A stretch of DNA of 64,000 nt from Lentihominibacter hominis. GTDB taxonomy: Bacteria; Bacillota; Clostridia; Peptostreptococcales; Anaerovoracaceae. The first letter of the stretch is position 1. Every line of letters starts with the position of its first letter. Under the pieces are notes generated by a model. That model saw only the letters and a program-made list of their open reading frames with translations. It ran no database searches and was not told the DNA's origin. The DNA lies in assembly GCF_014385065.1 (NCBI RefSeq), contig NZ_JACRTA010000001.1, positions 496,001 to 560,000 of the forward strand, read 5' to 3'. Made by a program: the position numbers and the translations under genes. Below, piece by piece: positions 15,025-29,961 of the stretch.

Positions 15025-17946
15025 CTAATCTTCTACGATATATTCATATATATCTTCCCTCACCGGATCACTGAGTATGTACGTTATCTCAAAAGCTTCA
15101 TCACCACTCTTTTCCAGTATCACCTGTTTAGGCTCGCCCGCCGCCTCTATCTCACCTAAGAAATAAAATTCCTTTGCCTCTTTATCGTTTTTATTTTTTC
15201 TCACAAACAAATATATCCTGTTTCCCAGATCCTCACGTGTTCTCTTATAAATATGATCTGCATCGGAAGATGTAACTCTTCTGGGATGTTTTGAAAATGC
15301 GATCAGTTCTTTATTAGATAGAAAACAATGTTCATATGAAACCTGTCCATGTTCTTTTTCATAATTGATAAATACCGGCATAGTCTTCGTTTTTCTCTCA
15401 TAAAAATATCCGCCTACATTAAGGGGGTTCATTTGATTTTCCCAGTTCAGCATACGACATATATCTTCATAAGTATATTTCTGATAGAGCTGCATATTAG
15501 TATCTTTATATCTTCGGGAAAAATATTCTTTATATCTTGAAAGACCAAATTCAATAATTTCCTCTATCATATTTCTAAAATTTTTGCTTGCCAGCATCTG
15601 TTTAAAAGACTCTGAGGACTGCCATATTCCGTCATCAGATATTTCAAGGAAACTGCAGCCGTCAAAATTTTCTCTTTCTTTAGGCATTAAAAAATCAAGG
15701 GTCAAATTTCTTAAAACTGATATTTCTTCTTCATCCGAAACTTCTATATCATAATTCTTCTTCATATTCTTGCGAAAAGACCTTAGCAAATCTCTGCAGC
15801 CTATCACAATGCATCTAAGCATCTCCAGCTCATGAGGCCTCTTCCCTTTCGCTAATTTCTTTGATATATATTCAATAGACAAGACTTCTTCTTCGGATAA
15901 AATAATGGAATAATTCTTATCATCACATTTTCTCAAAAACGTATAATATGATCCGAAGAGCTTACTGTCAAATATCTTTGTCACATCAACCGAACCATAT
16001 GTGTCAAAATCCAGCAACGAAGGAATTCGGCCCAATCTGTACTTCAGTTCCCTATATGCTTCTCTGATAAGTCTCACATCATTTGTCCTCGCTTTATCTA
16101 TAGATTCATATATACGCTTTTTCGATATTCTATCAAAATGTATGCTGGAACTTCCCGGTATGATTCGTGTTCCCGACGAAACATACCTTCTTATAGTGTC
16201 CTTATTATAACTGCGATCTCCGGACAAAGCTATAGGTATCATGAAATTATTCCTATAATTTCCAATAAAGTCCAAAACCACCACAAACTCTTTGTCACGA
16301 CTCTTACGCAACCCCCTTCCCAGCTGTTGGACAAATATTATAGGAGACTGTGTCGGTCTCAACATTATTATCTGATTTATCTCAGGAATATCAACACCTT
16401 CGTTAAAAATATCCACAGTAAAAATATAATCAAGCGCGTCTCTTCTCGTATCGTCCACAAGCCTTTCTATAGCTCTCTCGCGGACTTTCTGACTGTCTTC
16501 CCCTGACAGATCCAGCGTATGGAAACCTCTGCGGTTAAACTTCTGCGAAAGTATTCGTGATTCCTCTCTGCTGCTGCAAAAAACCAAGCCTCTCACCCTA
16601 TTTCCGCTGTATCCGTAATACTCGGCCTTTTCAATTATATGCTCCACTCTATCATCAGTTACAAGTCTGCTGAAGTCTCTAAGTCTCGTATCATCGTCAA
16701 ATGTTTCTGCTCCGATACTCAGCTCACTTATCCCAAAATAATGAAAAGGGCACAGCAATTTTTCCTCAAGAGCCTGAGCGAGCCTTATCTCATAGACTAT
16801 GTTATGATCAAACAAACTAAATATATCAAATCCATCAGTGCGTTCGGGGCTGGCTGTCATCCCCAAATAAAGTGATGGTTGGAAATAATCCATAATTTTG
16901 CGGTGCATACCGGCTCCGGCGCGATGCACCTCATCCATGACAATGACATCAAACTCATCACGCTTAAATCTGGTCAGTACGTTGTCTTTTGACATAGTCT
17001 GAACAGTAGCAAACAGCATATCCTTTCCATATTCCTTCTGTGATCCTGACAGAATCCCAAAAGATCTTCCCTTTCCCATAACATTTTCATAACTGCTCTT
17101 AGCTTGTTTTGCAATTTGTTCTCTATGTACTAAAAAAAGCGCCTTCTTAGGATTGAGCCGGCGAAGTGCGAATGCCGACGCATATGTCTTGCCTGTTCCT
17201 GTAGCCGATATGAGCAGCGCTCTCTTCTCTCCTCGATCTATCAGACTGTCCAGATTTCTCATAAACGCGAGCTGCATTGAATTTGGCTTAAGATAATGTT
17301 TATCAAAAGTACTGATTTTCTGAGCAAGACTGTTGACACGCCTCTGTTCATCATATATTTTACTGTATGTATCTATCCAAGTTTCCAGAGGCCGTGCTTT
17401 CTCCCATAAATATTGAAGTTCTGCACCCATAGTGCGAACAAACTCGCCATTGCCTGTGGCAATAATCTTCGTGTTCCACTCTCTGTTTACGGAAAGAGCA
17501 TGCATCGTCATATTTGAACTTCCGACAATTATCTTATATATGTCTCCCTCACGAAACATATAACCCTTTGTATGAAATCCGGGAGTTCTCTCATCAACAC
17601 AGTACATCCTGACGCTTATATTATCCAATCCGTCCAATTTTTTCAGAGCCTCAGGTTCACTGAAATTCAAATAGTTTGTAGTAAGTATACGCCCTTTTAC
17701 TCCGCAGGACTCCAGATCCTTTAACGTCTGCAGAAGAGGAGTAACGCCTCCTAAAGTTATAAAAGCAACACTGATAAAGAACTCATCACAATGTCTCAAT
17801 TCTTGCTCCAGCGATGCTATCACTTTGCGGCCTTTTCTGTAGTCATTAGAGATAAACTGAGGTCTGTAGCTTAATTCCGAGTTTGTACTGTAATCTATAA
17901 ATGCAGTCTGAAAACCATCCTGTATCTGCTGAAGTTTTTTATCCAT
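15025..17946 (-). CDS. PLD-nuclease-like / DEAD-DEAH superfamily 2 helicase / DUF3427 protein
   Basis: The 973-residue protein has three parts. Residues 30-190 form a phospholipase D-like domain with one HTK motif (His125, Lys127) and GSSNMT. Residues 220-560 are an SF2 helicase with Walker A ATGTGKT (248-254), DEVH (338-341), TASPERTD near 362 and QQLGRGLRKS. The C-terminal third resembles DUF3427, with NPLNVGGYFYER and VSYEHCFLS. Such proteins are predicted ATP-dependent DNA translocase-nucleases and occur scattered in accessory and defence loci. It is 13 bp downstream of a NYN/OST-HTH gene. Architecture is clear; a defence role is inference. Confidence 0.9.
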   Translation of the reverse strand: MDKKLQQIQDGFQTAFIDYSTNSELSYRPQFISNDYRKGRKVIASLEQELRHCDEFFISVAFITLGGVTPLLQTLKDLESCGVKGRILTTNYLNFSEPEALKKLDGLDNISVRMYCVDERTPGFHTKGYMFREGDIYKIIVGSSNMTMHALSVNREWNTKIIATGNGEFVRTMGAELQYLWEKARPLETWIDTYSKIYDEQRRVNSLAQKISTFDKHYLKPNSMQLAFMRNLDSLIDRGEKRALLISATGTGKTYASAFALRRLNPKKALFLVHREQIAKQAKSSYENVMGKGRSFGILSGSQKEYGKDMLFATVQTMSKDNVLTRFKRDEFDVIVMDEVHRAGAGMHRKIMDYFQPSLYLGMTASPERTDGFDIFSLFDHNIVYEIRLAQALEEKLLCPFHYFGISELSIGAETFDDDTRLRDFSRLVTDDRVEHIIEKAEYYGYSGNRVRGLVFCSSREESRILSQKFNRRGFHTLDLSGEDSQKVRERAIERLVDDTRRDALDYIFTVDIFNEGVDIPEINQIIMLRPTQSPIIFVQQLGRGLRKSRDKEFVVVLDFIGNYRNNFMIPIALSGDRSYNKDTIRRYVSSGTRIIPGSSSIHFDRISKKRIYESIDKARTNDVRLIREAYRELKYRLGRIPSLLDFDTYGSVDVTKIFDSKLFGSYYTFLRKCDDKNYSIILSEEEVLSIEYISKKLAKGKRPHELEMLRCIVIGCRDLLRSFRKNMKKNYDIEVSDEEEISVLRNLTLDFLMPKERENFDGCSFLEISDDGIWQSSESFKQMLASKNFRNMIEEIIEFGLSRYKEYFSRRYKDTNMQLYQKYTYEDICRMLNWENQMNPLNVGGYFYERKTKTMPVFINYEKEHGQVSYEHCFLSNKELIAFSKHPRRVTSSDADHIYKRTREDLGNRIYLFVRKNKNDKEAKEFYFLGEIEAAGEPKQVILEKSGDEAFEITYILSDPVREDIYEYIVED

Positions 17947-17959
17947 AGCAATTATCCTA

Positions 17960-18727
17960 TTATCTGCATCTGTAAGAAAAAATTATTACTTTCCCCTTGC
18001 CCGGAGACCGCCTCATCTCATACTTTCCGGGAAAGGCCTCTATCAGTTTAGACAGTTTGATATATCCAAAAGTACGCACATCAAAATCCGGCTTTACCCT
18101 CTTTATATATTGCCCCGCTGCGCTTATATTGACGTATCCTTCATCATCCTGATATTTATCCGAGGCTATCCTGAGCAAGTGATGAATCTCACTTATGTTT
18201 TCCTTTTCCTCCTCACACTTTTCAGGTACAGAAACTCCTTTTCTCGGTTTCTTTTCAGCGCCATCATTCTCATCATCCGGATCTTCAACATCCTCACTGA
18301 GGTTCTCCAAAAAAATAAATTCATCACAGCTGTTTCTGAATGCCTCTGGAGTCTTCTTTTCTCCCACGCCCATGACATAAACCCCTGACTCGTGCAGATT
18401 TATAGCCAATGGCGTATAGTCACTATCACTGGCAACAATCACAAACGCATCATAAATACCTTTATGAAGTAAATTAACCGTATCTATGACCAAAGCCATA
18501 TCAGTCGCATTTTTTCCGGTAACATAATCAAACTGCTGCTCAGCTTTAATAGCCAAACGCTTCAGCTCATTTTCCCAATTTTTCAGGCTTTCCTTTTTCC
18601 AGTTTCCGTATGCTCTTTTTACTACAATACGTCCATGAGTAGAAATCTCCCGTATAACTTCTTCCATTTTCGATAATTGTGTATTATCTGCATCTATCAA
18701 AAGCACAATGCTCTGCAAATTTTCCAT
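17960..18727 (-). CDS. NYN-domain ribonuclease-like protein with C-terminal OST-HTH/LOTUS domain
   Basis: The 255-residue protein opens with a NYN (PIN-like) domain: acidic residues in LLIDADNTQ (Asp12, Asp14), TDMALVIDTVNLL and VASDSDYTPL are the expected metal-binding set. A charged linker near 145-175 precedes a C-terminal OST-HTH-like RNA-binding segment with YVNISAAGQYIKR and FDVRTFGYIKLSKLIEAFP. This NYN plus OST-HTH arrangement is widespread and thought to act on RNA. Start 18727 follows GAGGAAGG. A TATAAT lies about 40 bp upstream (-35 weak). It heads a four-gene run with the helicase gene 13 bp behind it. Confidence 0.9.
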   Translation of the reverse strand: MENLQSIVLLIDADNTQLSKMEEVIREISTHGRIVVKRAYGNWKKESLKNWENELKRLAIKAEQQFDYVTGKNATDMALVIDTVNLLHKGIYDAFVIVASDSDYTPLAINLHESGVYVMGVGEKKTPEAFRNSCDEFIFLENLSEDVEDPDDENDGAEKKPRKGVSVPEKCEEEKENISEIHHLLRIASDKYQDDEGYVNISAAGQYIKRVKPDFDVRTFGYIKLSKLIEAFPGKYEMRRSPGKGKVIIFSYRCR

Positions 18728-19284: not shown

Positions 19285-19371
19285 CGCTCAAAATCCTCCG
19301 TAAAAATATATCGTCATTATATAATTTTATCATAAATTTTTATTTAACTGTACCCTAAGCAGTTTGCACAA

Positions 19372-19406
19372 AAAAATCACCGTACTTAGTAAATACGGTG
19401 ATTTTT
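19372..19406 (-). terminator. Terminator after the surface-protein gene
   Basis: AAAAATCACCGTA, nine-base loop and exact complement ending in T-run; just downstream of the stop codon at 19420 on the minus strand. Confidence 0.9.
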
Positions 19407-19419
19407 AATCTATATACTG

Positions 19420-21073
19420 CTATTTCTCCCTTCTCTTCCTTCCGTAAAAGATAAGAATTGCTGTTCCGCATAAAGCTGCCGCCATAACTGACAGCCAGAA
19501 TATCATATTACTGTCATCGCCTGTTTTGATTTCCTGATTTCCGTCTCCAGGCTTATCTGTTTCCCCTCCCGGCGACTGATCCGAAACCCATTTAGCATAA
19601 AGTTTCACATCTTTAATAACAGGAGTGCTAAAATCATACGCTTCTGTCATGGCCTCATCAACATACCATCCTTTGAACACATAACCTACTCTCGTTATAC
19701 CGGGCTCTGAAAATGTCTTTCCGCAGATTACGCTGTCTGCAGCGCCATCCTCAAGATCGCCTCCGTTAGTGACATATTCTATTTTATGAATATCATTTTG
19801 AAGCTGCGCATATATGGGATCTGCTTCAAGATCACCCTTAGTCCCTGTGGCACTGCCTGTTCTGGCTGCTTCTACATGAATATTACCCTCTGCTTTAATA
19901 AACGATTCCTCCGGCTCCTTACTTCCCGGATCAGCCGCATATTCAGCCATATCTTCAGGGATATCAACCTCTGCTTCAAGTTTCATTGACTTAAAATCTT
20001 CATAGAGAAGATCCGGATTTTCTGCCGCTTCAGCTCCATCCAAAACCGTGGTTATAGTAAAACTGTTATCTGCTATATCAGACCTGTTTACTTTAAATGT
20101 ATAAGTACATCTCGTTCCTACATCCGGCTCAAGAACTTTGCCATCTACATACGGTATAAACCCGCCCGTAAATTTCACAGTGATACTGTCGTCATCACCT
20201 TTAAGATGCAGTCTGGAGTCAAGTTTTACATTAAGATCAACATGAGTTATATAACCATTCCCATCAGCATTCTGCTGTTTATTTATCTCATCAGTACGGC
20301 CGAACACCATCTGGGCAACAGTATCATCAAAAGTAAAATTCGCTGTCAAATTCAGGCTGGAACTGTCATCATTTATAGCTCCGGCATGGACACCGATCAC
20401 TTTAGGATTTTCTCTCGAGGTCTCGCCGGTACCGTCCATATCTAAAGATATGGATGATCCTTTAGCCAGATTAGTTATGCTTAAAATCTTTATGTAACTT
20501 ATTGTTTTTACATATAATTCATCAACATCCTCAGGTATAGTCTGACCGTATCTGTACCAAGTACCGCTTCCGTCAGGCATAGTATTGTATGCAAGAAATC
20601 TCTGAAGAGATCCTCCGCCTACACCTATAGTTCCGATGTTTCCGCTATTAGGAGAGGTCTCCTTTCCTTCTGCCTTTATTTCCTGTGCCGGAACAGACTT
20701 AGAATAAGTTTTCGTTATAGTATATGCTTTTTCCTCGCCATCGCCAAAATCTATCTGTCTGTCGGAATCAAGAGTATAAGTGCAATATACGCTTCCATCT
20801 GATACAGTTTTCTTGGATTCCACAGCTTCGTCCTCTTTAAGAGTATTCCCCCAACCGGTAAGCCCGTTGTTTGCTGCATAATCCACTATATATCCTTTAT
20901 TGCTGTTATCTGACTGAGACATATAATAGGTTATTGTCCTGCCCGGTGTGAATTTACCGTTTGTATTATCCGAGCCGTCCGCTGTGTCAGCTGATGCCGT
21001 TAAGGGTATTATACCCCCCCCCTATTGTCATAACTAACAAAAGGAGGCCGGACACGAGTTTCTTTCTTTTCAT
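19420..21073 (-). CDS. Cell-wall surface protein with InlB B-repeat and sortase-like tail; out of frame at a G9 tract (candidate phase-variable gene)
   Basis: The long frame covering 500 residues begins at an internal ATG (20922), but codons upstream continue in the same frame to a nine-base G run (21014-21022 on the plus strand as C). Beyond that run, one frame away, is ATG 21073 with AGGTGG upstream and a signal-peptide start: MKRKK then a leucine/valine-rich stretch. With eight G the two join into a 550-residue protein whose signal peptide ends in LTASAD; with nine the frame stops soon after at TGA. The mature part has beta-rich repeats, an InlB-type repeat (GYVFKGWYVDEA, then LYAKW) near the end, and a tail with IKTGDDSN, a hydrophobic span and RKRREK, resembling a sortase signal lacking the usual proline. 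Function is probably adhesion or surface exposure. Confidence 0.85.
21014..21022. repeat. Nine-base C (G on coding strand) homopolymer, candidate slippage tract
   Basis: A run of nine C falls inside the signal-peptide coding region of the surface-protein gene. It is the longest C/G run I noticed in the window. Loss of one base restores the frame. Tracts of this type in surface genes of other bacteria are hot spots for replication slippage. Confidence 0.8.
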
Positions 21074-21091
21074 TTCTTTCCACCTCATTTC

Positions 21092-28452: not shown

Positions 28453-29961
28453 TTATCTGTTGCTGTTTCCGGAAGTATCTCTGAGGATAACATCATGCGC
28501 TCCGCCCTCTACGATACTCGTAGCTGACACTACAGTAAGTTTTGCATTCTTCTGCAAATCAGGTATAGTAAGAAGCCCGCAGTTGCACATGGTAGATTTT
28601 ACTTTCTGAAGTGACTGCCTTACATTATCACTCAGAGGTCCCGCATACGGTACATATGAGTCCACGCCCTCCTCGAAAGAGAGCTTACTGTCTCCTCCCA
28701 TATCATATCGCTGCCAGTTTCTTGCTCTGTTAGAACCTTCACCCCAGTATTCTTTCACATAACTTCCGTTTATAGTCAGTTTTGCAGTAGGCGACTCATC
28801 AAACCTTGAGAAATACCTTCCAAGCATGATGAAATCAGCTCCCATAGCCAGAGCCAGAGTCATATGATAATCATAAACTATACCTCCGTCCGAACAAATA
28901 GGAACATATACTCCTGTACGTCTAAAATAATCATCTCTAGCCTTTGCTACTTCTATGACAGCTGAAGCCTGTCCTCTTCCAATACCCTTTTGCTCTCTGG
29001 TTATACATATAGAACCGCCGCCGATACCAACTTTTACAAAATCAGCTCCCGCATCTGCAAGATAGTTAAATCCTTCCTTATCAACAACGTTGCCGGCGCC
29101 TATCTTTACACTGTCCCCATACTTTTCACGAACAAAATCCAAAGTCATCTTCTGCCATTCTGTGAATCCTTCTGATGAGTCTATACAAAGCACATCAGCT
29201 CCGGCTTCCACAAGAGCAGGTATCCTTTCCCTGTAATCTCTGGTGTTTACTCCCGCTCCCACCATATATCTCTTATGTCCGTCAAGAAGCTCATCAGGAT
29301 ATGCCTTATGTGTATCATAGTCCTTGCGAAAAACAAAATATGCAAGTCTCTGGTTCTTACCGATTATAGGAAGTGCATTAAGTTTATTATCCCACAATAT
29401 ATCATTGGCTTCGGAAAGCGTTACCCCTTCCTCGGCATATATAAGCTTTTCAAAAGGTGTCATAAAATTACATACCTTCTCATCAAGAGACATTCTGCTT
29501 ATACGATAATCTCTGCTTGTCACCAGTCCTACCATTTTTCCTTCTGCCGTACCGTCCTCGGTTACTGCTGTGGTGGAATGCCCTGTCCTCTCTTTGAGGT
29601 CCAACAGTTCTCTTAAAGTCTGATCCGGTCTGATATTTGCGTCACTTGTGACAAATCCGGCCTTATGAGACTTTACCTTCCGCACCATTTCAGACTGACT
29701 TTCTATGCTCTGGGAGCCAAATATAAATGAAATTCCGCCTTCCTTAGCAAGAGCTATCGCAAGTCTGTCTCCCGAAACCGCCTGCATAATGGCAGATACC
29801 AGGGGTATATTCATTTTTATAGCAGATTCTTCTCCCTTTCTGAATTTGACTACCGGTGTCTTTAAAGAAACATTATCCACCCTGCATTCTTTTGATGAAT
29901 ATCCCGGTACTAAAAGATATTCATTAAATGTTCTGGATGGTTCATCGAAAATATATGCCAT
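28453..29961 (-). CDS. guaB: IMP dehydrogenase
   Basis: The 502-residue enzyme oxidises IMP to XMP with NAD. Seen motifs: N-terminal LVPGYSS (where LTFDDVLLVP is commonest), two CBS domains between about 95 and 220, the catalytic cysteine in [15 protein letters not shown] near 325, and the flap [10 protein letters not shown], where bacterial enzymes often have an Arg-Tyr containing flap. The [11 protein letters not shown] and SICITR versions differ from the commonest bacterial form and recall the longer clostridial/eukaryote-like branch. A promoter lies upstream at about 30000. Confidence 0.95.

Follow-up and report, generated by a model that had tools for sequence, protein, structure and literature searches.

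A nine-G tract in signal-peptide-like codons as a candidate phase-variation switch of a predicted InlB-repeat surface protein, and related poly-G tracts in its likely bacterial family

A minus-strand tract of nine G separates the start from the body of a predicted surface-protein gene in the window (the whole stretch of DNA analyzed here, 64,000 nucleotides). This tract is most probably a slipped-strand (phase-variation) switch that toggles display of a predicted sortase-anchored, InlB-repeat protein. Replication slippage would add or remove G at the tract, and signal peptide and body would be joined in one of the three registers alone, whereas the remaining two would yield either a short peptide or a body without signal peptide, lacking an export signal. 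We infer that switching of the gene is reversible. An on/off switch at this position had been proposed in an earlier note on the same DNA, and the proposal gains support from a homolog whose tract appears to differ in length and from tracts recurring in the family at genes with signal-peptide-like starts. The family data suggest a broader repertoire of poly-G contingency, in which this gene stands for the translational branch and the commoner branch varies the -35/-10 spacer of surface-protein promoters.

The tract is the only run of at least seven G or C in the window; under a first-order model, 0.12 runs of at least nine would be expected there, compared with the one G9 seen. It is located within signal-peptide-like codons (Table 1). 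Read from ATG 21073, the start frame encodes MKRKKLVSGLLLLVMTI followed by glycines, and TGA 20987-20989 terminates it in the window allele after 28 codons. The body frame is open from 21021 to 19423 and begins just after a TAG composed of TA and the first tract G; as this TAG closes the frame, no upstream start reaches the body in the window allele. Judged by eye, the n-region and hydrophobic core fall in one frame and the cleavage-like site (...PLTASAD) in another, namely the body frame directly 3′ of the tract. The earlier note had described the ATG and its AGGTGG site as out of frame with the body; its coordinates are right and the frames agree with it. Its frame arithmetic, by which eight G would restore the joining register, holds as well. 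Coding-form poly-G contingency loci are characterized by a long homopolymer early in the coding region while the rest of the gene is intact, and this arrangement is the one found here. The tract does not class as a promoter-spacer contingency tract: it lies 3′ of the likely start codon, though TATAAT follows it directly, with TTGTTA upstream at a spacer of 21 nt (19 nt with seven G). A transcript starting there could not yield an exported protein, and TATAAT is therefore treated as a coincidence or an added role. In the stretch 21005-21022, GGGTATAATACCC forms an imperfect inverted repeat, and this and the TATAAT there would be unexplained if the tract were purely coding.

Table 1 Features of the poly-G locus in window coordinates
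Feature	Position	Strand	Remarks
Third-frame ATG, annotated start of P0001	21102..21104	(-)	By eye no Shine-Dalgarno site and no signal peptide
Shine-Dalgarno-like AGGTGG	21080..21085	(-)	6 nt 5′ of ATG 21073; from sequence
Start frame, 28 codons from ATG 21073	20987..21073	(-)	n-region and hydrophobic core, signal-peptide-like
TAG closing the body frame just 5′	21022..21024	(-)	Shares its final base with the tract (first G)
Poly-G tract, nine G	21014..21022	(-)	Proposed slippage site; from sequence and frames
Body frame, 533 open codons from tract to stop	19420..21021	(-)	Includes cleavage-like region and 500-aa ORF
500-aa ORF from ATG 20922	19420..20922	(-)	Open reading frame
Listeria-Bacteroides (InlB B-type) repeat, PF09479	19591..19788	(-)	Body residues 379-444; E 5.5e-14
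Sortase-like tail	19432..19527	(-)	Body residues 466-497; KTGDD, hydrophobic stretch, basic end
Terminator-like hairpin and T run just 3′ of the gene	19368..19404	(-)	AATCACCGTA / TACGGTGATT, 9-nt loop; read from sequence

A single gene makes up the locus, closed off by an intrinsic-terminator-like hairpin; a hairpin listing restricted to loops of up to 8 nt does not include it. Its body's own first ATG (20922) is not followed by a signal peptide, and no ribosome site was seen there at normal distance. One InlB-type repeat is present, for which TIGR02543 also scores over its cut-off. The gene had been described as an InlB-repeat, sortase-tailed body; the repeat is well supported, whereas the tail stays below threshold, LPXTG_anchor (TIGR01167) scoring 14.1 bits against a cut-off of 15.9, short of a called sorting signal. 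For comparison, a similar tail behind another family tract passes at 18.6 (L169) and a further one fails at 13.0 (L243). When the body was compared with 296 family genomes, matches at E 1e-8 were obtained in 36, and among the places listed residues 335-498, the repeat and tail part, were alone covered. The first 380 residues have no clear homolog among 49 genus genomes (one of 49, E 0.002), and no relative of the body was confirmed in genome_contigs or viral_contigs. The locus is thus not traceable across species; the ectodomain outside the repeat has no recognizable relative in the Pfam, family, and genus searches. A structure predicted for the body without alignment (mean pLDDT 32) was set aside. 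Elsewhere in the window, a large PLD-ResIII-helicase-DUF3427 protein adjoins a NYN and OST-HTH/LOTUS protein (Pfam; 15025-18727).

Comparison genomes were chosen via guaB. Among the 80 loci listed, the window copy (28453-29961) is nearest to the one from an uncultured Eubacterium MAG (L001, G001; 93% identity), with a goat-caecum MAG (L002) next at 90%. Within the 49-genome genus of G001, two genomes carry guaB at 93%. The window thus likely belongs to the genus or family of G001, judged by this gene. The family set was drawn around G001 and contains G003 (L004, Emergencia sp. SUG182); Emergencia is placed in Anaerovoracaceae, Clostridia, in the NCBI taxonomy.

One near-identical homolog of the body, P0001 (560 aa, from a cluster of 51 member sequences), was present among the matches listed; other matches span at most a quarter of the body (among 120 of 287 matches listed). 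P0001 and the window body share 495 of 500 residues (99%), and none of the five differences is a stop. The body is open in both, in line with the earlier description of an intact 500-codon frame without decay. The extra N-terminus of P0001 (MHSVRNEV...VSYDNRGGIIP), MHSVRNEVERNEKKETRVRPPFVSYDNRGGIIP..., equals the third upstream frame of the window letter for letter up to the tract, and joins the body through R-G-G. Deduced from the protein and assuming unchanged flanks, the P0001 tract would most simply consist of seven G. Tract length thus appears polymorphic, with nine G in the window and a deduced seven in P0001, while the body is intact in both. A fixed tract of nine G with a decaying body, the case the earlier note had named as speaking against a switch, is the opposite of what P0001 shows. 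The P0001 contig comprises 32,796 bases and is smaller than the window, so that it belongs to a separate assembly; both sequences probably derive from one species. As neither a Shine-Dalgarno site nor a signal peptide is seen by eye at its annotated start, the 560-aa form is probably the choice of the gene caller and not the real start. Both alleles compared, that of P0001 by deduction, are out of the joining register.

Across the family, 349 genomes were searched for promoters of the form TTGA, gap, eight G, gap, TANNNT, with the reversed pattern as control. The forward pattern yielded 148 matches in 61 genomes compared with 21 in 16 genomes for the control; these sums were made by hand and include overlapping matches on single tracts, so that tracts are fewer than matches. 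In many matches the promoter is near-perfect and the G run directly touches the -10 box, as in TTGACAAAAATGTGC-G10-TATAAT in G237. In the fetched loci, both boxes flank 81 of 123 tracts, a proportion that is no rate, as the loci were chosen largely for matching. Spacers of 17-20 nt account for 61 of these 81 (mode 19, 31 tracts; 10-28 accepted by the script), 8-10 G are found in 75, and the -10 box abuts the tract in 46. Among fetched loci, TATAAT comes immediately after 19 of 187 runs of at least eight G; for runs of 5-7 G, the figure is no more than 3 of 1188. The next ORF is signal-peptide-like in 48 of 66 cases behind box-flanked tracts compared with 174 of 1554 in the background (Fisher p 2.7e-29), although the rules differed slightly between the two sets (80 aa and any start in the ORF chosen for the former, 150 aa and the initial four starts for the latter); in the remaining 15 of the 81, no ORF 3′ of the tract qualified under the rule used. 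With a single rule for both sets, the counts are 72 of 94 and 181 of 1615 (p 1.4e-44), both spanning every fetched locus including those of the class search. The signal-peptide test is in all cases a home-made rule.

Within the genus, a search for nine G found tracts in 23 of 49 genomes, and stretches from 11 of these 23 provided 46 distinct tracts. Fourteen of the 46, located near contig ends or N, were dropped as likely sequencing artefacts. Among the 32 internal tracts, only eight pass a strict test for promoter-like surroundings; signal-peptide codons contain two (L168, L176). The closest genome by guaB, G001, contributes none of these at nine G and a single promoter match with eight G. 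Runs of G located at the contig ends of G001 (L157, L158, L159, L162) and G322 (L181, L182) are likely two-colour sequencing artefacts and would inflate naive homopolymer counts.

Pfam searches of 20 genes behind family tracts returned InlB-type repeats in six (L235, L240, L243, and L255 over cut-off, L169 and L191 just under). CWB2 cell-wall domains (L223, L226), Cna_B (L257), and Big_2 (L229) were found as well, in addition to a beta-helix protein (L163), a peptidase (L248), a solute-binding protein (L200), an antiporter (L224), a camelysin-type match barely over cut-off (L164), and a sugar epimerase-like protein with poor promoter boxes (L154); two of the 20 gave no Pfam match (L175, L210). 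The 20 also include a receiver-GGDEF-EAL protein, whose boxes are weak (L171, G192:C51), and an AMP-binding enzyme (L165, G269:C79), each with a poly-G run 5′ of it, extending the theme beyond surface proteins. In G160 (L223; G160:C46:27500-42500), five consecutive paralogs with a common signal-peptide start each possess their own poly-G promoter, four with nine G and one with eight; the one of the five tested by Pfam is a CWB2 protein. Such runs of paralogous secreted-protein genes, with promoters composed of TTGACAAATATTTACC, eight or nine G, and TATACT, were seen in L223 and L225 (G187:C34).

Coding-form tracts were searched in the 349 genomes with the pattern GGAG-ATGA-G8, resulting in 32 matches in 21 genomes compared with six control matches (counted by hand, several matches representing one tract). 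Matches in L263, L265, L270, and L281 are ordinary glycine codons within one open frame and were not counted as switches. In L275/L176, L268, L283, L273, L276, and L279, the start frame dies just 3′ of the tract and the long frame continues in another register. L275/L176 combines a signal peptide with a sortase-like tail and L268 is pilin-like; L168, L176/L275, L268, and L283 are independent early-codon tracts in which start frame and long frame differ. A direct comparison is provided by L276 (G226:C42) and L277 (G131:C17), with 9 and 11 G, respectively, flanked by 250 bases of 100% identity 5′ and 350 bases of 99.7% identity 3′. Barring assembly error, this pair would represent a length change in otherwise unchanged DNA. 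Here, as also in L279, the tract follows shortly after an ATG and precedes a 422-codon open frame, whose C-terminus, as we take it, resembles phage tail proteins; the gene is possibly a phase-variable prophage gene. A separate arrangement is seen in L179 (G130:C42:1-6600), where three tandem small genes of about 160-180 codons carry nine or ten G near each 3′ end; slippage there would alter the C-terminus.

A stricter promoter pattern was applied to 391 genomes of the class and gave 35 matches in 17 genomes compared with one in the control; the class draw includes some family genomes, among them G075, which has a match, and rates are not directly comparable with those of the family search owing to the different patterns. 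Of 27 distinct promoters listed, six had no ORF by the rule used, and by eye about 15 of the other 21 ORFs begin with a signal or lipoprotein peptide. The poly-G promoter device is sporadic in Clostridia.

Several alternatives to a genetic switch have to be weighed for the window tract. A sequencing or assembly error, in which case the real tract would preserve the frame and leave the gene permanently expressed, is unlikely. Homopolymers are error-prone, and the part of PMC9187656 available to us warns that annotated G-tract lengths may differ from those in the population. The separate assembly behind P0001 is nevertheless also out of register, by a different deduced length, and errors would not place recurrent family tracts at meaningful sites with promoter spacers of 18-19 nt. 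Moreover, a long G tract in signal-peptide codons stays even if its length is wrong. Two alleles out of register would likewise suit an ordinary pseudogene, a gene on its way out through a fixed frameshift. We regard this as very unlikely, given a 500-codon body that is open in both with five differing residues and no stop, deduced tract lengths that differ between them, and a like arrangement in unrelated family genes.

The tract might instead act, alone or in a second role, as the spacer between TTGTTA and TATAAT, its length tuning transcription as well as, or rather than, the frame. The abutting -10 box, shared with 46 of the 81 family promoters (spacer mode 19), and the preference of TATAAT for runs of at least eight G (19/187 versus 3/1188) are in line with such a promoter. 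However, a transcript from there would contain the body without a start giving a signal peptide, the -35 box matches at just four of six positions, and ATG 21073 is preceded by a good ribosome site and leads into a signal-peptide-like core, which renders a promoter role quite unlikely. Long G runs can also slip during transcription or translation, and one allele could thereby produce some full-length protein by programmed leakiness. The different length deduced for the P0001 tract points to a change at the DNA level, and slippage in expression is thus a highly improbable account. The slipped-strand switch in the signal-peptide codons remains our preferred reading of the window tract.

For the family as a whole, we lean towards a broader view: in the family, with Emergencia as a member, the surface proteome may be under genome-wide poly-G contingency, in which surface, cell-wall, and signalling genes each carry a slot of 8-11 G that serves as consensus-promoter spacer or lies in signal-peptide codons. 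Populations would then be mixtures of shuffled surface states, with the window gene in the translational branch and the device sporadic across the class. Host or phage selection as the pressure behind the switch is our guess. If many commensal Clostridia vary surface proteins by poly-G in promoter spacers and signal peptides, tract length has to be weighed in strain comparisons and in work on selection by host or phage. The same would hold for MAG annotation, where genes may be called in pieces or given wrong starts; P0001 seems to be an example. Poly-G contingency as such is already known, and of greater interest is the breadth of its apparent use across the family. Among the matches listed in a search of open-licence full texts (titles and abstract beginnings), no report dealing with poly-G switching, whether in Anaerovoracaceae or at promoters of surface-protein genes in Clostridia, was found, which fits the earlier remark that poly-G phase variation has been described less often for Clostridia than for Campylobacter or Neisseria.

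Homopolymer slippage as a route to phase variation is textbook knowledge for Campylobacter, Neisseria, and Haemophilus. In Neisseria porA and opc, a homopolymer between the -35 and -10 boxes sets the spacer and hence transcription of the surface protein. These proteobacterial genes resemble the commoner form in the family, whereas the window tract is located 3′ of a start codon. Intragenic G-tract frame switching is described for Neisseria and Mycoplasma agalactiae, and Campylobacter is also named among organisms with contingency genes, in the available part of PMC9187656. The coding G-tracts of these bacteria are alike in conferring phase variation and differ in belonging to other phyla; as far as that part of the source goes, the Neisseria and Mycoplasma cases are glycan or polysaccharide genes, not signal peptides of wall-anchored proteins. 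Within Clostridia, the phase-variation case turned up by the literature search was C. difficile CwpV, a phase-variable cell-wall protein controlled by recombinase-driven inversion of a 195-bp region (PMC2784873, in the part available). CwpV is thus a phase-variable wall protein of the same class, switched by inversion instead of a homopolymer. The closest known case is provided by the sortase-dependent pilus genes bbr_0113 and bbr_1889 of Bifidobacterium breve UCC2003, in which a G-tract splits a secretion-signal ORF from an LPXTG ORF, and in which variable tract lengths, with shifts in mice, have been demonstrated and slippage was measured by deep sequencing (PMC9187656, same part). In both systems, tract length decides, or in the window would decide, whether signal and LPXTG-type body (sub-threshold in the window) of a gut commensal surface protein are joined. 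The B. breve tracts, as presented there, belong to pilus operons with measured slippage, whereas the window holds a single gene, probably of Clostridia, with predicted slippage, in a family that also carries promoter-spacer tracts, a further difference from the B. breve case.
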